From Algoriphagus pacificus (GTDB taxonomy: Bacteria; Bacteroidota; Bacteroidia; Cytophagales; Cyclobacteriaceae): a DNA stretch of 64,000 nt. The stretch covers positions 1,509,048 to 1,573,047 of the forward strand of contig NZ_JAFKCU010000001.1 in NCBI RefSeq assembly GCF_017254845.1. Direction: 5' to 3'. The translations under genes were made by a program, and so were the position numbers. The notes below the pieces were generated by a model. It made no database searches. It had not been told where the DNA came from and saw only the letters and a list, made by a program, of their open reading frames with translations. Shown piece by piece: positions 51,446-63,027 of the stretch (the first letter of the stretch is position 1; every line of letters starts with the position of its first letter).

Positions 51446-51476
51446 TTGTAAGTCTGAATTTTCAGTTTTAAGTTTG
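51446..51476 (+). promoter_or_regulatory. Promoter of the ilv-leu operon
   Basis: -33 TTG (51446-51448), 20 nt, then -7 TAAGTTTG (51469-51476), an exact TAnnTTTG match. The start of transcription would be near 51481-51484, giving a leader of about 170 nt that contains the leader peptide and attenuator. Confidence 0.7.
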
Positions 51477-51518
51477 TCTTGTAATACGAATCGAATCAAA
51501 GAAACCTTCGACATAACT

Positions 51519-51569
51519 ATGTATAAAGTAGTCATTTTGCTAAGCTTAATTATTCTCATTGGATGTTAA
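51519..51569 (+). CDS. Candidate ilv leader peptide (16 aa)
   Basis: ATG at 51519 to TAA at 51567-51569 encodes MYKVVILLSLIILIGC. Ten of the 16 residues are branched-chain amino acids: two Val (GTA, GTC), four Ile (all ATT) and four Leu (TTG, CTA, TTA, CTC). The ORF starts about 37 nt after the predicted transcription start and ends 1 nt before the first strand of a three-part attenuator. That is the arrangement of a ribosome-sensing leader for Ile, Leu and Val supply. It also resembles a lipoprotein signal peptide ending in Cys, but the stop codon follows at once, so a secreted product is unlikely. There is no Shine-Dalgarno site, as is usual in this phylum. Confidence 0.75.
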   Translation: MYKVVILLSLIILIGC

Positions 51570-51570
51570 A

Positions 51571-51644
51571 AGTGAGGCACTAGACTATTTATAATGAATT
51601 AACAAAATCTAAAGTGCCTCACTAAACCTGAGGCACTTTTTTTT
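51571..51644 (+). promoter_or_regulatory. Transcription attenuator of the ilv-leu operon
   Basis: Three segments: 1 AGTGAGGCACT (51571-51581), 2 AAAGTGCCTCACT (51611-51623) and 3 TGAGGCACTTT (51629-51639). Segment 1 pairs with 51613-51623 over 11 perfect base pairs (antiterminator, 31-nt loop). Segment 3 pairs with 51611-51621 over 11 perfect base pairs with a 7-nt loop and is followed by T to 51644, eight T in all (terminator). The two folds exclude each other. A ribosome reaching the leader stop codon would cover segment 1 and allow termination. One stalled at early Val/Ile/Leu codons would leave it free and let transcription go on into ilvD, whose ATG is 11 nt after the last T. Confidence 0.82.
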
Positions 51645-51654
51645 ACACACCAAT

Positions 51655-53334
51655 ATGACCCTGAAAAAACACAGTTGGGAAATCAGTGAAAATCCGGAAC
51701 ATCCGGCCGGAATGGCTATGTTGTATGCCACCGGAATGAGCGATAAAAAGATGAAACAGCCTTTTGTAGGGATAGCGAGTTGTGGCTATGAAAGTAACCC
51801 CTGCAATATGCACCTCAACGACTTTGCCGGTCTGATCAAAGCCTCCTCTCAGGAGCACGATCTGACCGGTTTGGTTTTTAATACCATTGGCATTTCTGAT
51901 GGAACTACCATGGGTACTTTAGGAATGCGTTACTCTTTGGTTTCCAGAGAGATCATTGCAGATTCAATTGAATCTTTTATCGTAGGACATTCTTTTGACG
52001 GTTGCGTGGCTGTCGCAGGTTGTGACAAAAACATGCCAGGTGCCTTAATGGGCATGATCAGAACTGATAGACCATCTATCTTATTATATGGAGGAACAAT
52101 TGCCTCCGGACATTACAAAGGTGAGAAGCTGAATATTGTTTCCGCTTTTGAAGCTTTTGGCAAAAGAGTTAATGGGAATATTTCTGATGAGGATTATGAT
52201 GGCGTGATCCGAAATGCTTGCCCTGGAAAGGGAGCTTGTGGAGGAATGTACACGGCAAACACCATGTCTTCTGCAATTGAAGCAATGGGGATGTCTTTGC
52301 CTTATTCTGCATCATATCCAGCTAATTCACCAGAGAAGTTGAGAGAATGTGCCGAGGTCAATAAATACATGCGTATTCTTCTTGAGAAGGATATTAAGCC
52401 AAGTGATATCATTACCAGAAAAAGTATTGAAAATGCTGTCACTTGTGTCATTGCACTTGGAGGTAGCACTAATGCAGTGATGCATATTATCGCAATTGCA
52501 AGGACTGCTGGAGTTGATTTCACGATTGATGATTTTAAAGCAATCAATGCTAAAACTCCAATGATCGGTGACTTCAAACCATCTGGAAAGTTTATGATGG
52601 AAGATCTTCATGAGCAAGGCGGTTTGCCAGCATTCATGAAATACATGTTGAATAAGGGTTTCTTGCATGGAGATTGCCTTACTGTAACCGGTAAGACTTT
52701 GGCAGAGAATCTAAAAGATGTTGAGCCAGTGACTGTTTCTATGGTCAATGTGATTCATCCTTTGGAAACTCCAATCAAAGCAACAGGGCATTTGTGCATT
52801 CTGTCAGGCAATCTAGCCCCAGAAGGAGCTGTTGCAAAAATCACCGGGAAAGAGGGAAGTTCATTTACAGGTCCAGCTCATGTTTTTGACTCTGAGCAGG
52901 ATGCCAATGATGCGATCCGTGATCATAAGATCGAAAAAGGTGAAGTAATCGTCATTAGAAATATTGGACCGAAAGGTGGTCCTGGTATGCCAGAAATGTT
53001 GAAGCCAACTTCCATGATCATTGGTGCTGGTTTAGGTTCTGACGTTGCCTTGATTACTGATGGAAGATTTTCCGGAGGAACGCACGGATTTGTTGTAGGA
53101 CACGTTACTCCAGAAGCATTCAGTGGAGGACCAATCGGATTGGTTCAAAATGGAGATATCATTACCATTGATGCTGATAATTTAAAGCTTTCTGTGGCAG
53201 TTTCTGAAGAGGAGTTTGCAGAGAGGAAGAAAACCTGGAAACCAAAAGAAATTTCTGGTTTGCAGGGAACATTGAAAAAATACAATAAACTTGTTGCTAC
53301 AGCATCTGAAGGTTGTGTAACAGATAAATTTTAA
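51655..53334 (+). CDS. ilvD: Dihydroxy-acid dehydratase
   Basis: Iron-sulfur enzyme that dehydrates the dihydroxy acids of the valine and isoleucine pathways. The cluster cysteines are in [24 protein letters not shown] and [18 protein letters not shown]; the C-terminal [20 protein letters not shown] is also typical. The length of 559 aa is normal. It is the first structural gene of the operon. The ATG lies 10 nt after the attenuator T-run, and ilvB follows after 4 nt. Confidence 0.97.
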
Positions 53335-53338
53335 GCCT

Positions 53339-55033
53339 ATGAAAGACTTGATGATCCGAGGAGCTGATATCGTAGTCAAAACACTCATAGAGGAAAATGC
53401 CGAAATTATTTTCGGATATCCCGGAGGTGCAATCATGCCAGTGTACGATGCACTGTATGATTACCACGATAGAATCAAACATGTACTTACCCGACATGAG
53501 CAAGGAGCAATCCACGCAGCGCAGGGGTATGCACGAGTCTCAGGAAAAGTCGGTGTCTGTTTGGCTACTTCAGGGCCAGGTGCCACCAACCTAATTACAG
53601 GTTTAGCAGATGCATTGATCGATAGTACACCTTTGGTATGTATTACCGGTCAAGTTGCGGCTCATTTGTTAGGTACGGATGCATTTCAGGAAACTGATAT
53701 CCTAGGCATGTCTATGCCTTCGACCAAATGGAATATTCAGGTTAGAAGAGCAGAAGATATTGCTCCGGCTATCGCAAAAGCATTCTTTATTGCAAGATCT
53801 GGCAGACCTGGACCGGTATTGATAGACATTACTAAAAATGCCCAAACTGATTTTGGGGAATTCAATTATGTCCCATGTTTAGGCTTTAGATCTTATCAGA
53901 CTAAAATTGAAATCAACAAAACTGATGTTGAGAGGGCAGCTGCTGTGATTGACGCAGCAGAAAGACCTTATGTCTTATTTGGTCAAGGTGTAGTTTTGGG
54001 AAAAGCAGAGGCGGAGTTTAAAGCCTTTTTGGACAAAACGGGAATTCCTGCAGCTTCTACCTTATTGGGTTCAGGAGCACTTCCGCAAGATCATCCAAAC
54101 TTTGTAGGAAAGCTTGGGATGCATGGAAACTATGCACCAAATATGCTTACCAACCAATGCGATGTTTTGATTGCAGTTGGGATGAGATTTGATGACCGTG
54201 TTACTGGAGATGTGAAAAGATATGCCAAGCAGGCTAAAATCATTCATTTAGAATTAGATCCGGCAGAAATCAGTAAAACGGTAAAATGCCACCATTCAAT
54301 TCTGGGTGATTGTAAAGACAGTTTGGCCTTATTGACGGAAGCTGTATCGCAGAAGTCTCACAAAGAGTGGATGGAAAGATTCCGCGAATTGGAAAGAGAA
54401 GAAAATGCTGCGGTTGTACAGCATGACATCACTCCAACCAAAGTTGGACTTACCATGGGTGAAGTAATTCATCAAGTGAATCAATACAAAGCAGATGACG
54501 CAGTTTTGGTGACTGACGTAGGTCAGCATCAGATGATTGCGTGGAGATATTTTAATTACAAAAAATCCCGAACTCAGGTTACTTCAGGTGGCTTGGGAAC
54601 CATGGGGTTTGCGTTGCCAGCGGCATTAGGAGCCCAGATGTTTGATTTTTCCAGACAAGTAGTTTGTGTAGTTGGAGATGGAGGAATCCAGATGACTATT
54701 CAAGAACTTGGAACGATCATGCAGACTAAAGCTCCTGTGAAAATTATTTTGCTCAATAATAATTACTTGGGCATGGTAAGACAATGGCAGCAAATGTTTT
54801 TCGATAAGCGCTATTCATTTACAGAATTGGATAATCCGGATTTTGTGAAAATTTCTGAAGCGTACGGCATCAAATCCCAAAAGGTGACCGATCGCGCAGA
54901 TTTGAATGAAGCCATCGAAGACATGTTGATACATGACGGACCATACTTCCTAGAAGTAGTAGTGGAAAAAGAAGACAATGTCTTCCCAATGATCGCTACG
55001 GGATGTTCTGTAGAAGAGGTAAGACTTAGTTAA
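53339..55033 (+). CDS. ilvB: Acetolactate synthase, large (catalytic) subunit
   Basis: ThDP-dependent enzyme that condenses two pyruvates to acetolactate, or pyruvate and 2-oxobutyrate to acetohydroxybutyrate. The N-terminal domain has FGYPGGAIMPVYDAL and the catalytic Glu in LTRHEQGAIHAAQGYAR. The central FAD-binding region follows, and the ThDP motif is GDGGIQMTIQELGTI followed by LLNNNYLGMVRQWQ. The length of 564 aa is normal. It stands between ilvD (4-nt gap) and its regulatory partner ilvN (9-nt gap). Confidence 0.97.
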   Translation: MKDLMIRGADIVVKTLIEENAEIIFGYPGGAIMPVYDALYDYHDRIKHVLTRHEQGAIHAAQGYARVSGKVGVCLATSGPGATNLITGLADALIDSTPLVCITGQVAAHLLGTDAFQETDILGMSMPSTKWNIQVRRAEDIAPAIAKAFFIARSGRPGPVLIDITKNAQTDFGEFNYVPCLGFRSYQTKIEINKTDVERAAAVIDAAERPYVLFGQGVVLGKAEAEFKAFLDKTGIPAASTLLGSGALPQDHPNFVGKLGMHGNYAPNMLTNQCDVLIAVGMRFDDRVTGDVKRYAKQAKIIHLELDPAEISKTVKCHHSILGDCKDSLALLTEAVSQKSHKEWMERFRELEREENAAVVQHDITPTKVGLTMGEVIHQVNQYKADDAVLVTDVGQHQMIAWRYFNYKKSRTQVTSGGLGTMGFALPAALGAQMFDFSRQVVCVVGDGGIQMTIQELGTIMQTKAPVKIILLNNNYLGMVRQWQQMFFDKRYSFTELDNPDFVKISEAYGIKSQKVTDRADLNEAIEDMLIHDGPYFLEVVVEKEDNVFPMIATGCSVEEVRLS

Positions 55034-55042
55034 CTCAGGCCT

Positions 55043-55543
55043 ATGAAACGTTACACCATTTTTGTGATTACCGAAAACTTTATCGGTATTCTCAATCGCA
55101 TCACGATCATCTTCACTAGAAGAGGAATCAATATCGATGCACTTACTGCCTCTGAAAGCAGAATTGAAGGGATTCATCGCATCACCATCGAAGTGACGGC
55201 AAGTGAAGATACCGTCATTCAACTCGTCAATCAGATTGAAAAAATCATTGATGTGATCAAGGCATTTTATCATGAAGATGAAGGGGTGGTTTATCAAGAG
55301 ATTGCGCTCTATAAAATTCCAGTTTCAAAATTGGATGGAGGCCTTGAAAAAATAATCCGTCAGCATAATGCGAAAATCATTGCAGCTGAACCTGAATTCG
55401 TGGTTTTGGAGCTTTCAGGACATAAAGAACAAACTCAAGAACTGCTTGAAATATTGAAAGGATATGGACTTTTGGAATTTGCCCGCTCTGGTAGAGTGGC
55501 CGTAGCCAAAAGAATGCATACCATCGATAGTTACGTCAAATAA
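55043..55543 (+). CDS. ilvN: Acetolactate synthase, small (regulatory) subunit
   Basis: A 166-residue regulatory subunit that confers feedback control, commonly by valine, on IlvB. The N-terminal ACT domain reads YTIFVITENFIGILNRITII, then GINIDALTASES. The second half (about 85-160) holds the C-terminal regulatory domain, with the typical AKIIAAEPEFVVLELSG. The gene follows ilvB by 9 nt. Confidence 0.95.
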   Translation: MKRYTIFVITENFIGILNRITIIFTRRGINIDALTASESRIEGIHRITIEVTASEDTVIQLVNQIEKIIDVIKAFYHEDEGVVYQEIALYKIPVSKLDGGLEKIIRQHNAKIIAAEPEFVVLELSGHKEQTQELLEILKGYGLLEFARSGRVAVAKRMHTIDSYVK

Positions 55544-55733: not shown

Positions 55734-56777
55734 ATGAAATTAAAATTCGGCACAGTAGAAGAAAACGTAGTAACCAGAGAAGAATTTCCTTTGGAAAAAG
55801 CTAGAGAAGTCCTAAAGGACGAAGTGATTGCAGTTTTGGGTTACGGAGTACAAGGACCAGGACAAGCTTTGAACCTGAAAGACAATGGTTTCAATGTTAT
55901 CGTGGGTCAAAGAAAAGGATCTAAAACTTGGGACAAAGCTGTATCAGACGGTTGGGTTCCTGGTGAAACTTTATTTGAACTGGAAGAAGCTTGTGAAAAA
56001 GGTACTATTCTTCAGTTCCTTCTTTCTGATGCTGGTCAAATTGCTCTTTGGCCAACTGTGAAAAAACATCTGACTCCAGGGAAAGCATTGTATTTCTCTC
56101 ACGGATTCGGTGTTACCTACAAAGAAAAAACCGGAATTATTCCTCCAGCGGATATTGATGTGATCTTGGTTGCACCAAAAGGTTCTGGAACATCTTTGAG
56201 AAGAATGTTTGTAGAAGGAAGAGGCTTGAATTCTTCTTTTGCGATCTATCAGGATGGAACTGGAAAGGCTAAAGACAGAGTTGTAGCACTAGGTATTGGT
56301 GTTGGATCTGGATACTTGTTCGAAACTGATTTCTACAGAGAAGTGACTTCAGATTTGACGGGTGAAAGAGGAACTTTGATGGGTGCTATCCAAGGAATTT
56401 TCGCAGCACAGTATGAAGTGTTGAGAGCAAATGGACATACTCCATCTGAAGCTTTCAACGAAACTGTAGAAGAATTGACTCAGTCATTGATGCCGTTGGT
56501 AGCAGAAAATGGAATGGACTGGATGTATGCAAACTGCTCCACCACTGCCCAGAGAGGTGCTTTGGATTGGTGGAAGCCTTTCAGAGATGCTACTAAGCCG
56601 GTGTTTGAAGAATTATATAACAGTGTGAAAACTGGTAAGGAGGCTCAAAAGTCAATCGACTCTAACTCCAAAGAAGATTACAGAGTGAAATTGGAAGCTG
56701 AACTGAAAGAATTGAGAGATTCTGAAATGTGGCAGGCAGGCGCCGTCGTCAGACAGTTGAGACCAGAAAACAATTAA
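55734..56777 (+). CDS. ilvC: Ketol-acid reductoisomerase
   Basis: NADPH-dependent isomerase and reductase acting after acetolactate synthase in the Ile/Val pathway. The nucleotide site is VLGYGVQGPGQALNLKDNG. Other blocks are VAPKGSGTSLRRMFVEGRG, LTGERGTLMGAIQGIFAAQ, HTPSEAFNETVEELTQSL and the end VRQLRPENN. I use the ATG at 55734 (MKLKFGTVEEN, 347 aa) rather than a TTG at 55668. The protein departs from the common bacterial form (GYGSQGHAHALNLRDSG type). As I recall them, its blocks are closest to fungal mitochondrial Ilv5. Confidence 0.95.
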   Translation: MKLKFGTVEENVVTREEFPLEKAREVLKDEVIAVLGYGVQGPGQALNLKDNGFNVIVGQRKGSKTWDKAVSDGWVPGETLFELEEACEKGTILQFLLSDAGQIALWPTVKKHLTPGKALYFSHGFGVTYKEKTGIIPPADIDVILVAPKGSGTSLRRMFVEGRGLNSSFAIYQDGTGKAKDRVVALGIGVGSGYLFETDFYREVTSDLTGERGTLMGAIQGIFAAQYEVLRANGHTPSEAFNETVEELTQSLMPLVAENGMDWMYANCSTTAQRGALDWWKPFRDATKPVFEELYNSVKTGKEAQKSIDSNSKEDYRVKLEAELKELRDSEMWQAGAVVRQLRPENN

Positions 56778-56795: not shown

Positions 56796-58304
56796 ATGAG
56801 TGAAAAGCTATGGATATTTGACACAACCCTAAGAGACGGGGAGCAAGTGCCAGGGTGTCAGCTGAATACCCAGGAGAAAATTGTGGTGGCGAAAGCTTTG
56901 GAAGAACTAGGTGTAGATATCATCGAAGCCGGCTTTCCAATTTCCAGCCCGGGGGATTTTAACTCGGTAGTGGAAATTTCAAAGGCAGTTTCAAACCCAA
57001 TCATTTGTGCCCTCTCGAGAGCCGTTGAAAAGGATATCGAAGTAGCAGCCCAAGCACTCAAATATGCTAAGAAAGGGCGAATCCACACCGGAATCGGTGT
57101 TTCACCTTACCATATTCAATTCAAGCTGAGATCCACGCCTGATGATATCATCAAGCGTGGTGTCGCAGCTGTGAAATTTGCGAAAAGATTCGTGGAGGAT
57201 GTGGAATTCTATGCAGAAGATGCAGGTCGATCCGAACCGGATTTCCTTTGCAAAATTATTGAAGAGGTTATCAAAGCGGGTGCTACTGTAGTGAATATTC
57301 CTGATACGACTGGATATTGCCTTCCGGAACAATACGGTGCCATCATTGCTAGTTTGAAAAACAATGTTCCAAACATTGATAAAGCAATTATTGCGACTCA
57401 CTGCCATAATGACTTAGGCATGGCAACAGCTAATACTGTGGCAGGTGTGCAGCATGGAGCGAGACAAGTAGAGGTGACTATCAACGGAATCGGTGAACGC
57501 GCAGGAAATACATCCATGGAAGAAGTGGTGATGGCTATTAAGTGCCATAAATCAATTCCTGTTCATACAGAAATCGTAACGCCTAGAATCTATAAGACTA
57601 GCCGTTTGGTTTCCAAGTTAATGAATATGCCAGTACAGCCTAACAAAGCAATTGTGGGTAGAAATGCATTTGCGCATTCTTCCGGCATCCACCAAGACGG
57701 TGTATTGAAGCATAGAGAAAACTATGAGATCATCGATCCGAAAGAAGTGGGAGTCGATGAATCAACAATTGTATTAACAGCAAGATCTGGAAGAGCAGCT
57801 TTGAAGCACCATTTAGATGCTTTGGGAGTGGAACTAGAAGGCGATGCTTTGCGAGAAGTTTATGAGGCATTTTTGATTCTAGCTGATTCTAAAAGAGATA
57901 TAGGAAGAAAAGACCTGATGGGACTTGTCGGAAAATACATGGAGGAATCCAATTTCATCGAACTGGGAACAGTGACTTATTCTTCCAATGGAAGCATTCA
58001 GGCACAGGTTTCATTGAAAATAGGAGACGAGCCTCATACAGCAACTTCCCATGGAAATGGACCAGTTGATGCTGTTTTGAAAGCCATCGATAAAATTGTG
58101 AAACCACAGGTTGACCTAGAAGAATTCCTAATCCAGGCCATCACACATGGAAGTGATGATGTGGCCAAAGTTCACATGAGATTGATCAAAGGTGAAAAGC
58201 CTTACTATGGATTTTCTTCCAACACAGACATTGTCTTAGCATCTGCTCAGGCTTTTGTTGATGCCCTAAACAAAATACCAGTCAAAGAATATACGACTGC
58301 TTAA
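56796..58304 (+). CDS. leuA: 2-Isopropylmalate synthase
   Basis: First committed enzyme of leucine synthesis, condensing acetyl-CoA with 2-oxoisovalerate. The start [22 protein letters not shown] holds the metal-binding Asp and catalytic Arg. The HxH metal site is [19 protein letters not shown], and [15 protein letters not shown] follows. The C-terminal leucine-feedback domain spans about residues 380-500. At 502 residues it is the complete form. It precedes leuC by 4 nt. A second, related synthase in the operon (60354-61940) resembles citramalate synthase instead. Confidence 0.95.
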
Positions 58305-58308
58305 AATC

Positions 58309-59715
58309 ATGGAAAAGACAACATTATTTGATAAAATCTGGGATGCTCACGTGGTACGATCAGTACCTTCTGGACCAGATGTATTCTTCATCGATAAGCA
58401 TTTTATCCATGAAGTAACATCTCCTGTGGCATTCCTAAACTTGGAGAAAAGAGGTGTGACTGTGAAATATCCGCATCGCACCATCGCTACTCCAGATCAC
58501 AACGTGCCTACAGTAGATCAAGATCAGACGATCAAAGACAAGCTTTCTCGAATGCAAGTGGAGAGACTTCGTGAAAACTGTAAGAAATACGGCATCGAAT
58601 TGCATGATTTGGGATCTGCCCATCATGGAATCGTTCACGTGATTGGACCTGAATTGGGTATTACCCAGCCAGGTATGACCATCGTTTGCGGAGATAGCCA
58701 TACCTCGACACATGGAGCTTTTGGAGCAATTGCCTTTGGAATCGGTACTTCAGAAGTGGAAATGGTTTTGGCTACCCAGTGTATCATGCAATCCAAGCCA
58801 AAGAAAATGAGAATCACCGTGGATGGTGAACTTGGTTCTGGTGTGACTTCGAAAGACATCATTCTTTACATTATTGCTAAAATTTCTGCTGCAGGAGCAA
58901 CTGGATATTTTGTGGAATACGCTGGTTCAGCAATTCAAAGTCTATCTATGGAAGCTAGAATGACCATTTGTAATATGTCTATCGAGATGGGTGCAAGAGG
59001 TGGGTTGATCGCTCCAGATGAAACAACTTTCAATTATTTGAAAGGCAAACAATATTCTCCAGCTGGCGAAGCTTGGGATCAGGCAGTAGCAGAATGGTCC
59101 GCTTTGAAAACTGACGAAGGAGCTGTTTTTGACAAAGAATACACTTTTGAAGCGGCTGATATTGAACCAATGATCACTTATGGTACCAACCCAGGTATGG
59201 GCATCAAAGTGAAAGGAAATATTCCGACTACAGAAGGTATGGAAGGAAGCAACAAAATTTCTTATCTGAAATCATTGGAGTACATGGGCTTTGCCCCAGG
59301 GGAACCAGTGAAGGGTAAAAAAGTGGATTATGTATTTGTGGGTTCTTGTACCAATGGTAGAATTGAAGACATTCGTTCGGTAGCATCTTTTGTAAAAGGG
59401 CATAAGAAAGCAGATAACATAACTGCTTGGATTGTTCCTGGTTCTAAAGAAGTCGAGAAAATGGCTCATGAAGAAGGATTGGTTAAAATCCTGGAAGAGG
59501 CTGGATTTGAATTAAGACAACCGGGATGCTCTGCATGCCTTGCTATGAATGATGATAAAATCCCATCAGGCAAGTATGCGGTATCAACTTCAAACAGAAA
59601 CTTTGAAGGTCGCCAGGGACCAGGAGCGAGAACGATGCTCGCATCTCCTTTGACAGTAGCAGCTGTAGCCGTGAGAGGCGAAATCTGTGATCCTAGGGAA
59701 GTATTTGAAAATTAA
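58309..59715 (+). CDS. leuC: 3-Isopropylmalate dehydratase, large subunit
   Basis: Aconitase-family Fe-S subunit that isomerises isopropylmalate and, in the citramalate route, citramalate to 3-methylmalate. The cluster cysteines lie in [14 protein letters not shown] and [39 protein letters not shown], seen in parts, is a family block. The length of 468 aa is normal. It works with LeuD, encoded 41 nt downstream. Confidence 0.97.
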
Positions 59716-59756: not shown

Positions 59757-60347
59757 ATGGCTTACGATAAATTTACCGTTTTGACCAGCACGGCAGTTCC
59801 TTTGCCGGCTGAAAACGTAGATACTGACCAGATCATCCCTGCTCGTTTCCTTAAGGCAACAGAGCGTGAAGGATTTGGTGACAACTTATTCCGTGACTGG
59901 AGATATGATGTGGAAGGAAATCCTAAAAAGGATTTTGTACTAAATGATCCAACTTACTCTGGAAAAATTTTAGTTGCAGGAAAGAATTTTGGATCAGGTT
60001 CCAGCCGTGAACATGCGGTTTGGGCGATCTATGATTATGGCTTCAGATGCGTTGTTTCAAGTTTCTTCGCAGATATTTTCAAGAATAACTGTCTGAATAT
60101 TGGCGTTTTGCCAGTGACAGTTTCTCCTGAATTTGCAGAGAAACTATTCAATGCAATTGCCAGCGACCCTTCTACTGAAATTGAAGTGAGCATTCCTGCT
60201 CAGACAATCACACTTCTGACTACAGGAGAATCAGAATCATTTGACATCAATTCTTACAAAAAGGATAACATGCAGAATGGTTTTGACGATATCGACTACC
60301 TATTAAACATGGAGTCGGAAATCGATAAGTTTGAAAAAACGAGATAA
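59757..60347 (+). CDS. leuD: 3-Isopropylmalate dehydratase, small subunit
   Basis: Swivel-domain partner of LeuC, 196 residues. The family blocks are PLPAENVDTDQIIPARFLK, LVAGKNFGSGSSREHAVWAI and SFFADIFKNNCLNIGVLPV. It is of normal length. It lies 41 nt after leuC, and the citramalate synthase-like gene starts 6 nt after its stop. Confidence 0.96.
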   Translation: MAYDKFTVLTSTAVPLPAENVDTDQIIPARFLKATEREGFGDNLFRDWRYDVEGNPKKDFVLNDPTYSGKILVAGKNFGSGSSREHAVWAIYDYGFRCVVSSFFADIFKNNCLNIGVLPVTVSPEFAEKLFNAIASDPSTEIEVSIPAQTITLLTTGESESFDINSYKKDNMQNGFDDIDYLLNMESEIDKFEKTR

Positions 60348-60353
60348 TATTTG

Positions 60354-61940
60354 ATGGATAATCAGAGACGCATAGAAATAATGGATACAACCCTGAGGGA
60401 TGGCGAACAGACCTCAGGAGTTTCCTTTTTGCCTTCTGAAAAGCTACAGATTGCGAAACTGCTTTTGGAAGAACTCCGGGTAGACCGCATTGAAGTTGCT
60501 TCAGCTCGCGTTTCTGATGGGGAGTTGGAAGGAGTACAAAAAATCACCCATTGGGCAGCTGAAAAAGGCTATTTGGACCGAGTGGAGGTGTTAGGCTTTG
60601 TCGATACGCCAGCATCAGTCAATTGGCTGATTCAAGCAGGTGCCAAAGTCATGAATCTATTGACGAAAGGTTCTCTGAACCATCTTGTCCATCAACTCAA
60701 AAAAACGCAAGAGCAGCATTTCGCCGATATAGCGAAAAGTATTGCGCATGCCCAAGAAAACGAGATTGATGTAAATATCTACTTGGAGGACTGGAGCAAT
60801 GGCATGAGAAATTCTCCTGAGTATACCCTTGATTTGATTGAGTTTCTTTCGAAGCAACCGATCAAGCGCATTATGCTGCCAGATACTTTGGGCTTGCTTT
60901 CTCCTGAAGAAACGAAGGAATATTTTATTCAAATCACAGAGAAATACCCCCAAGTTCATTTTGATTTCCATGCGCACAATGACTATGATTTGTCTGTGGC
61001 TAATGTCATGGAAGCAATTTTGCATGGGGCTTCAGGAATTCATACCACGATCAATGGATTAGGAGAAAGAGCTGGAAATGCTCCTCTGGAATCAGTGATT
61101 GCTGTGATCAAAGACTTTACAGATCTTGAAATTAATGTTCAGGAACAGAAGATTTACAGAGTCAGTAAGTTGGTAGAGCAGTTTTCTGGTCAGCATATTC
61201 CTGCCAATAAACCAGTGGTTGGGGAGAATGTATTTACCCAGACAGCTGGAATCCATGCCGATGGTGATAATAAAAAGAATCTTTATTTTAATGATTTGCT
61301 TCCAGAGCGATTTGGAAGGCAGAGAAAATATGCTTTGGGCAAAACATCAGGGAAAGCCAATATTCTGAAGAATTTGGAGGAGTTAGGTATTTCTTTGGAG
61401 AAAGAGGAATTGACTAAAGTGACTCAGCGAATTATCGAACTTGGAGATAAAAAAGAGCGCGTCACAACGGAGGATTTGCCTTATATCATCTCTGACGTTC
61501 TTCAGAATAATTCCATTGAAAAGAATATCCATATTGAAGGATATCACATGACGCATTCCAAAGGTCTGAAACCAACGGTTCAGCTGCGAATGAAGATTCA
61601 TGGAAAAATGTATGATGAAAGTGCTACCGGTGACGGGCAGTACGATTCTTTTATGAGAGCTTTGAGAAAGATTTATAAATCCTTGAAAAAAGAGCTTCCA
61701 AAACTGATTGACTATCATGTATCCATTCCTCCAGGAGGGAAAACCGATGCCTTTGTGGAAACGGTGATTACCTGGGATTATGGAAAAATATTCAAAACAA
61801 AAGGACTTGATCCTGATCAAACAGTGGCAGCGATGATGGCCACGGAAAAAATGCTTAACATCGTCGAATCATTTAATCAAAATCCAACCCAAGAAGAATC
61901 CAAATTCTATGGAAATGAATATCGCGCTGTTGCCGGGTGA
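60354..61940 (+). CDS. cimA: Citramalate synthase-like enzyme (Leptospira CimA type)
   Basis: A 528-residue member of the isopropylmalate/homocitrate/citramalate synthase family. The catalytic start is [21 protein letters not shown] and the metal site is [19 protein letters not shown]. Against Leptospira (R)-citramalate synthase as I remember it, long blocks agree: [70 protein letters not shown] and [15 protein letters not shown]. The real LeuA of the operon is different. It probably condenses pyruvate with acetyl-CoA to start isoleucine synthesis. The C-terminal regulatory domain is present. The start is the ATG at 60354, and the 3' end overlaps leuB by 32 nt. Confidence 0.85.
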
Positions 61941-62976
61941 TGGCATCGGCCCAGAAGTAATCGACCAGGCTGTCAAAGTAGTTAAAGCTATTGGCCAAAA
62001 ATTCGGACATAAAATCACTTTTAAAGAAGCAGTAGTAGGTGCAGCCGCCATTGATGCGACAGGTTTACCTTACCCGGATTCTACACATGAGATCGCAGCA
62101 GCATCAGATGCAGTCCTTTTCGGTGCTATAGGTGATCCAAAATATGATAATGATCCTAAAGCAAAGGTTAGACCTGAGCAAGGTTTGCTTTTGATGAGAC
62201 AAAAATTGGGTTTGTTTGCCAACGTTAGACCTACTTTCACTTTCCCTTCTTTGGTGCACAAATCTCCATTGAAATTGGATAGAGTTGAAGGCGTGGATTT
62301 CGTGTTTTTCAGAGAATTGACTGGAGGTATTTATTTCGGTGAACCAAGAGGAAGAAACGAGCAAGGCACAAAAGCTTTTGATACTAACGTTTATAGCAAG
62401 GAGGAAATCACCCGTTTGGCGAGAATGGGGTTTGAAGCAGCTCAGAAAAGAAGAAAATTGTTGACTTGCGTGGACAAAGCAAATGTGATGGCAACTTCCA
62501 GACTTTGGAGAGAAACTGTTCAGGAATTAGCTCCTGAATATCCAGATGTGAAAGTTGAATATGAATTTGTAGATGCTGTGGCAATGCGTTTGATCCAGTG
62601 GCCAAAGGCATACGATGTTTTGATTACTGAAAACTTATTTGGAGATATTTTGACAGATGAAGCTTCTGTAATCTCAGGATCTATGGGCTTGATGCCATCT
62701 GCTTCCTTGGGTACATCAATCAAATTGTTTGAACCAATCCACGGTTCTTATCCTCAAGCAGCTGGAAAAGACATTGCCAATCCATTGGCGACAGTTCTTT
62801 CTGCAGCCATGATGTTTGATTATGCATTTGACTTGAAAGAAGAGGCTCAACTGATTTCTGATGTGGTGAACCAATCCCTTGCAGAAGGATATGTGACCGA
62901 GGATATCGCAGATGGAGGACCATCTTATAAAACTTCTCAAGTTGGTGACTGGCTAGCAGCTAAGATTTTAGCTTAG
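61909..62976 (+). CDS. leuB: 3-Isopropylmalate dehydrogenase
   Basis: NAD-dependent oxidative decarboxylase of the leucine pathway, also used for 3-methylmalate in the citramalate route. The start [18 protein letters not shown] is typical. It also has [15 protein letters not shown], the catalytic Lys in [16 protein letters not shown], the metal-binding Asp residues of [25 protein letters not shown] (in part), and [19 protein letters not shown]. The length of 355 aa is normal. The ATG at 61909 overlaps cimA by 32 nt; an ATG at 61915 is also possible. It is the last gene of the operon, before a terminator. Confidence 0.96.
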
Positions 62977-62998: not shown

Positions 62999-63027
62999 AA
63001 AACCACCTCAGGAATGGGGTGGTTTTT
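62999..63027 (+). terminator. Terminator of the ilv-leu operon
   Basis: AAAACCACC (62999-63007) and GGTGGTTTT (63018-63026) form a 9-bp stem with a 10-nt loop, then further T. It follows the leuB stop by 22 nt and closes an operon of about 11.5 kb. Confidence 0.85.

Follow-up and report, generated by a model that had tools for sequence, protein, structure and literature searches.

A putative Val/Ile/Leu leader-peptide attenuator upstream of the ilv-leu operon of Algoriphagus pacificus and its counterparts in related genomes

The ilv-leu operon of Algoriphagus pacificus is in all probability controlled by a ribosome-mediated transcription attenuator, in which the position of a ribosome on a short Val/Ile/Leu-rich leader would select between a terminator and an antiterminator in front of ilvD. 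The support at hand consists of the sequence itself, its conservation in relatives, paired changes in the helices, and the agreement between modelled ribosome positions and the predicted folds of the window, by which we mean the whole stretch of 64,000 nucleotides analysed here (positions 1509048-1573047 of its contig within a 5.28 Mb genome). On these grounds the leader element is real and conserved, and its mechanism very likely of the attenuator class. Algoriphagus is placed in the Cyclobacteriaceae, order Cytophagales, phylum Bacteroidota, and the IlvD protein of the window shares 97% identity with its Algoriphagus aestuarii counterpart and 96% with the one from A. iocasae.

The ilv-leu operon

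A profile scan of the window gave the gene order ilvD, ilvB, ilvN, ilvC, leuA, leuC, leuD, a citramalate-synthase-like gene and leuB, all on the forward strand. The first gene, ilvD (dihydroxy-acid dehydratase, 51655-53334), matched TIGR00110 with 716.1 bits against a cut-off of 618.15. Matches above the respective cut-offs were also obtained for ilvB (acetolactate synthase large subunit, 53339-55033, TIGR00118), ilvN (acetolactate synthase small subunit, 55043-55543, TIGR00119), ilvC (ketol-acid reductoisomerase, 55734-56777, TIGR00465), leuA (2-isopropylmalate synthase, 56796-58304, TIGR00973), leuC (58309-59715, TIGR00170), leuD (59757-60347, TIGR00171) and leuB (3-isopropylmalate dehydrogenase, 61909-62976, TIGR00169). 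The start of ilvC was set at the ATG at 55734 (the listed ORF begins at a TTG, 55668), and its profile scan ran from codon 2 at 55737. The remaining gene, a cimA/leuA paralogue at 60351-61940, had NF042433 as its top match, with 703 bits where the cut-off is 950; judging from this gene content, the operon may provide for isoleucine synthesis via the citramalate route. The listed leuB ORF begins before the citramalate-synthase-like gene has ended, the two sharing 32 bases (61909-61940), which may reflect either a later true start or coupled translation. A 12-pair terminator-like site at 62999-63026 on the same strand, downstream of leuB, probably marks the end of the operon. The products of the operon match the amino acids enriched in the leader peptide, namely Val, Leu and Ile.

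Parts of the leader region

An earlier sequence-only reading of this DNA had described a promoter, a Val/Ile/Leu leader ORF, two alternative pairings, a run of eight T and the ilvD start codon. All of these are present where it placed them, and its observation of attenuator parts upstream of ilvD is confirmed. The promoter, on the forward strand at 51446-51476, has the form TTG-N20-TAAGTTTG, with boxes at 51446-51448 and 51469-51476, and agrees with the consensus TTG-N18..21-TANN[TA]TTG, which we take to be the Bacteroidota promoter. Translation initiation in Bacteroidota proceeds mostly without Shine-Dalgarno pairing. The leader ORF occupies 51519-51569 (ATG at 51519, TAA at 51567-51569) and encodes in 16 codons the peptide MYKVVILLSLIILIGC, ten of whose 16 residues are Val, Ile or Leu. 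Its four Leu codons include the rare CTC (4.6%) and CTA (9%), according to codon usage in 11 genes of the window.

Directly downstream begins segment 1, whose 5' part (51571-51581) has a perfect reverse complement at 51613-51623; the sequence at 51611-51621 in turn has one in segment 3 (51629-51639), the 3' arm of the terminator. Segment 2 (51611-51623) is thus common to two helices, the antiterminator 1:2 and the terminator 2:3, which have 51613-51621 in common. The eight-T run covers 51637-51644, and ten bases separate it from the ilvD ATG at 51655. The terminator scan of the window listed 51611-51639 as an 11-pair site, and a predicted intrinsic terminator (51611-51644) accordingly stands between the leader ORF and ilvD.

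Such an arrangement did not arise in shuffled sequence. Our own detector found a leader ORF followed by a terminator in none of 2000 dinucleotide shuffles of 51446-51654, and an exact 11-mer complement of segment 2 arose in none of 20000 shuffles of 51446-51610. The fold of the leader RNA 51465-51646 had a z of -3.23 relative to shuffles, with one of 200 equally good.

Conservation in Cyclobacteriaceae

Relatives were chosen by ilvD alone, taking the 30 best ilvD-protein loci, own genome included, from a search of 148 genomes, 136 of which gave a match. A Val/Ile/Leu-rich ORF followed by the three segments is present in all 30. The alignment A1 comprises 29 of these loci (L009, nearly equal to L008, was omitted), and within it segment 2 is strongly conserved. 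Upstream of a conserved pair of codons, ATT-CTC, the ORF differs in length by 3 bases in five rows and by 9 bases in one of the 29. The CTC codon (51555-51557; A1 columns 61-63) is kept in 24 of the 29 rows, though no Leu codon is rarer in the 11 window genes; its role may be to slow decoding, to pair with segment 1, or both. Another recurrent feature is the motif CAACCAT between segments 1 and 2 (A1 columns about 109-120), present in 17 of 29 rows and in 21 when one-letter variants are counted; the window is without it.

A covariance model, R1, built from the 29 A1 loci was run on 78 named ilvD loci and matched all 78, a count that is not independent for several loci because they lie on the same contigs as model rows. 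The remaining 22 sources of that scan were the window and relatives already examined, with L188 and L211, which come without upstream DNA, omitted. In a search of the family, R1 matched 102 of 295 genomes, belonging to 36 of 84 genera, at E <= 0.01, and 78 of the 295 by hand count at the stronger level of E <= 5.5e-7. Outside the family there was no R1 match better than E 1.2e-4.

The near set of 100 loci was reduced to 91 distinct cores by counting duplicates once. In 89 of these the ATG is at the same place and opens an ORF of 15-23 codons with 7-13 Val, Ile or Leu (mean fraction 0.535). The two other cores (L106 and L107, one genus) have their ATG just outside the model, with 5 and 8 Val/Ile/Leu of 21, and having no ATG at the expected place they were excluded from the recoding, ribosome-folding and promoter counts. 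All 89 near cores carry the motif TTG-N18..21-TANN[TA]TTG ahead of the leader, with a spacer of 20 in 86 of them, compared with 8 hits in 1780 letter shuffles.

Paired changes in the helices

The sequence-only reading had held that a conserved Val/Ile/Leu-rich ORF and compensatory changes in relatives would speak for attenuation, and in the near family the short ORF and both pairings are indeed kept, with pairs changed on both sides. Changes were counted in A1 and in A2, a set of 94 distinct rows fitted to the covariance model, four antisense matches included. Helix 1:2 has 91.4% of its cells paired in A1 (10 pairs) and 90.3% in A2 (11 pairs). The terminator helix 2:3 reaches 95.9% and 96.4%, respectively, with C-G to U-A exchanges, whereas slid versions of the structure pair in just 31-55% of cells. 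In three of 29 A1 rows, two from one genus (L028 and L030) and one from another (L029), segments 1, 2 and 3 change jointly from G-C-G to A-U-A, and both helices are kept.

In A2, 49 cells of helix 1:2 are changed on both sides, a number reached by none of 500 shuffles, and three pairs of helix 2:3 have 14, 4 and 1 cells of this kind. Other counts were less discriminating. In A1, both-side changes occur at 5 pairs (7 cells) of the true structure, but at 9 pairs (21 cells) when it is slid by -1, and the number of further pair types was matched by 144 of 500 controls. For 1:2 in A1, 169 of 500 shuffles had as many changed pairs and 245 as many pair types; in A2 the corresponding numbers were 307 and 467.

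Segment 0 and the 0:1 helix

The three segments of the sequence-only reading stand, but the set was incomplete: a fourth, segment 0 (51526-51533), lies inside the leader ORF and had been overlooked. It reads AAGTAGTC and falls within codons Lys3-Val4-Val5. The optimal (MFE) fold of the leader RNA pairs it with 51583-51590, and inner pairs also involve 51570-51573 and 51576-51579. The 3' part of segment 1 (51582-51590) is thus the strand that pairs with segment 0, as seen in the MFE fold and in relatives. The complete scheme is a 0:1 anti-antiterminator, a 1:2 antiterminator and a 2:3 terminator, in classical order.

Synonymous recoding of the window leader weakens the 0:1 hairpin (p = 0.017). 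The same test in hairpin form gave z < 0 in 85 of 89 near sequences, which are kin and not independent, and in 42 of 48 distant units (described below), with p <= 0.05 in 42 and 15 of them, respectively. The duplex form of the test was weaker, with z < 0 in 76 of 89 and 32 of 48, and p <= 0.05 in 33 and 11. The outer 0:1 helix has 75-78.5% of its cells paired across A1 and A2, with both-side changes at 8 of 9 pairs in A2; an example is L031, where UAGUC/GACUA is exchanged for UAGUU/AACUA. The 0:1 helix is less well supported than 1:2 and 2:3, and RNAalifold applied to A1 recovered the terminator alone, not 0:1 or 1:2.

How 0:1 would act is constrained by two observations. The outer 0:1 helix of the window uses bases beside the 1:2 helix and not within it; exclusion of 1:2 by 0:1 would rest on the inner 0:1 pairs or on topology. 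In addition, folding of a window RNA that ends at segment 2, without a ribosome, favoured 1:2 over 0:1 (0.99 versus 0.00). Since 1:2 thus beats 0:1 before segment 3 exists, any effect of 0:1 must be a kinetic one or one exerted jointly with segment 3.

Ribosome position and predicted folding

A ribosome covers positions -17 to +12 around its A site, and this footprint was blocked from folding while the A site was moved along the leader. In the window, the predicted P(1:2) was 0.53-0.92 with A-site codons 4-8 and 10-13. It was at most 0.18, with P(2:3) of 0.65-0.80, without a ribosome and with A-site codons 2, 3, 9 (Ser9) and 14-17 (Ile14 to stop). The expectation of the sequence-only reading, that an early or middle stall would favour the antiterminator and a ribosome at the stop codon the terminator, with the last Ile codon borderline, is reproduced by this model.

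Across the 89 relatives, the mean P(1:2) was about 0.25 with the ribosome in mid-ORF and 0.01 with the ribosome at the end or absent; mid-ORF values were the same for codons other than Val/Leu/Ile and for Val/Leu/Ile codons (0.24 and 0.25). In the modelled folds, the position effect of the window recurs in relatives, weaker and not specific for Val, Leu or Ile codons. At equilibrium 1:2 exceeded 2:3 in just 27-28% of the mid-ORF cells of these relatives, and 2:3 won in about 72%, so that kinetics must be invoked.

More distant loci and tandem units

Because R1 gives just matches of E >= 1.2e-4 outside the family, we wrote a generic detector for a leader ORF followed by a terminator. Of 72 more distant loci, 46 held a similar unit built from different stem sequences, compared with 7 of 72 on the antisense strand and 7 of 360 shuffles. 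By group, detections amounted to 27 of 32 further loci of the family and 7 of 20 from the order outside it; of 20 loci from the class and phylum 12 were detected, three of which look false by their long gap in our judgement. Six of the family loci L108-L139 (L108-L110 and L135-L137) had been picked with a known weak model match, while the 40 loci beyond the family were taken by ilvD alone. Eight detections were discarded by eye, and 48 units entered the recoding and complementarity tests.

The distant units stand upstream of ilvD or of an ilvE-like (branched-chain aminotransferase) gene, recognised by eye, in front of ilvD. In L109, for example, the leader holds CACCATTC, segment 1 is GAATGGTG and segment 2 is GCCATTCC, which is the same scheme in other letters. 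Complementarity of segments 1 and 2 had p <= 0.05 in 32 of the 48 units; in several of the 16 misses, segment 1 lies, by eye, inside the ORF and outside the stretch tested. Two units of branched-chain amino acid-rich leader ORF and terminator stand in tandem before ilv genes in L114, L122, L126, L244 and L254, which belong to family, class and phylum genomes. These could constitute a two-step attenuation; some second units failed one of the pairing tests (1:2 p = 0.47 in L244; 0:1 z 0.89 in L114). We consider it plausible, if not quite probable, that leader-peptide attenuation is the common control of branched-chain amino acid synthesis across Bacteroidota, with stems repeatedly rebuilt and tandem two-step gates in several lineages. 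On that phylum-wide reading, the rebuilding of stem sequences would account for the absence of the element from Rfam.

Other candidate attenuators in the same genome

Two further loci of the A. pacificus genome resemble attenuators of other pathways. Upstream of a chorismate-binding trpE-like gene (L262) there is a leader ORF, MKTIKANIWWWHLNSFQGKAQKARA, with three consecutive Trp codons, and a 13-pair terminator lies just before the gene; from these features, L262 is likely a Trp attenuator. Upstream of hisG (L260), a His-rich ORF, MKNSTPNIAFSTTALHSHVQHHFHHSS, begins 190 bases before the gene, and downstream of it a small stem-loop, ATTCCTC-CTGA-GAGGAAT, trailed by a weak run of T, was noted by eye, where the detector listed no terminator. 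For thrA of the same genome, 1801 bases were covered and contained no terminator.

Proposed mechanism and alternative explanations

We infer translation of the leader, stalling upon it, termination and a response to amino acids, in the following order. Transcription would start shortly past the -7 box, at about 51482, and a ribosome would start on the leader. With ample charged Val-, Leu- and Ile-tRNA, the ribosome would reach the stop codon, where it covers the 5' half of the segment 1 sequence (51571-51581), and then depart. The ribosome at first, and 0:1 pairing onto the leader ORF afterwards, would prevent segment 1 from pairing with segment 2, leaving segments 2 and 3 to form the terminator, so that transcription would stop near 51644. 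If Val, Leu or Ile is short, the ribosome would stall on the corresponding codons in mid-ORF and disrupt the 0:1 hairpin, and the freed segment 1 would pair with segment 2 as the latter is made. No terminator would then form, and ilvD to leuB would be transcribed. The attenuator interpretation of the sequence-only reading is supported by the comparison with relatives and by the folding of the window.

The best surviving alternative, though a very improbable one, is an RNA that senses a metabolite or tRNA (a riboswitch or T-box), with the small ORF incidental. A structured element with a terminator before a branched-chain amino acid operon would suit such an RNA, as would the recurrence of CAACCAT between segments 1 and 2 in the 17 A1 rows, and the available portions of one study describe structured RNAs linked to ilvD or ilvB in Veillonella and Leptospira whose mechanism is not known (PMC8632094). 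However, no Rfam family, T-box or described riboswitch was found in the window at the gathering threshold, the Val/Ile/Leu-rich ORF persists in lineages with wholly different stem sequences, and ahead of the conserved codons the ORF varies in length in steps of three bases.

Still less probable is a terminator governed by a protein-mediated antiterminator, with the ORF as a by-product. The helices 1:2 and 2:3 alone would suffice for such a switch, and CAACCAT could be a binding site, but the richness of the ORF in Val, Ile and Leu and the pairing between leader codons and segment 1 would be left unexplained. It is just as improbable that the ORF is a gene for a small hydrophobic peptide or a lipoprotein with a function of its own, and the hairpin that gene's ordinary terminator: the window peptide ends in LIGC, which we take to resemble a lipobox, but a Cys end occurs in only 7 of the 89 near leaders, the 11-base complementarity between segment 1 and the terminator arm would have no role, and the location before ilvD is constant in 30 loci.

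Comparison with known systems

A scan of the window with Rfam 15 gave no match at the gathering threshold, leader families included. The best match below it, a weak full-length one to RF01859 (Phe_leader), a family for another amino acid, covered 51518-51643 with 26.3 bits (E 0.018), where the gathering threshold is 55.

Surveys by Vitreschak (2004) and Lopatovskaya (2010) reportedly deal with attenuators of Bacteroidetes/Chlorobi or of bacteria at large. The Algoriphagus ilvD leader is, as the evidence well supports, a newly described case of a long-known switch, and priority for ilv attenuation in the phylum may lie with these older surveys. The sequence-only reading knew of no experimental work on such a leader in the phylum. 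For this particular leader that holds, in that among the literature matches listed (titles and beginnings of abstracts) none describes it; the phylum, however, is not without precedent: in Flavobacterium psychrophilum the regions ahead of amino-acid operons are reported to hold 'strong clues' for attenuation by leader peptides (PMC9723704). As far as the available parts of that paper go, the leaders there are similar to ours in phylum, in their association with amino-acid biosynthesis operons and in having a short leader, in our case a putatively translated one. In Bacteroides thetaiotaomicron, small ORFs in 5' UTRs have been called 'reminiscent of leader peptides' (PMC7366714); the phylum and the idea are the same, but the example given in the accessible text is a hypothetical protein gene and not ilv.

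The closest likeness in topology is the ilvBNC operon of Corynebacterium glutamicum, for which the accessible part of one report describes a three-hairpin attenuator model tested by mutation (PMC11857589). There too a branched-chain amino acid operon is preceded by a terminator, an antiterminator and an anti-antiterminator, equivalent to 2:3, 1:2 and 0:1; the phylum is a different one, and the model was subjected to mutational tests. We file the leader under a known mechanism because of the F. psychrophilum clues and this C. glutamicum topology.

Bacteroidota are abundant, and our comparison indicates that the position of the ribosome on a short leader is coupled to termination in them, much as in enterobacteria. 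The element is short, and stems that differ between lineages offer a natural set of compensatory mutants. The enterobacterial ilvGMEDA, ilvBN and leu attenuators combine a leader peptide in which the regulated amino acids abound with alternative hairpins and an intrinsic terminator. The Algoriphagus leader resembles them in its Val/Ile/Leu-rich peptide, its alternative hairpins and the terminator before the operon, and differs in being shorter, with 16 codons, and in having segment 1 just past the stop codon.
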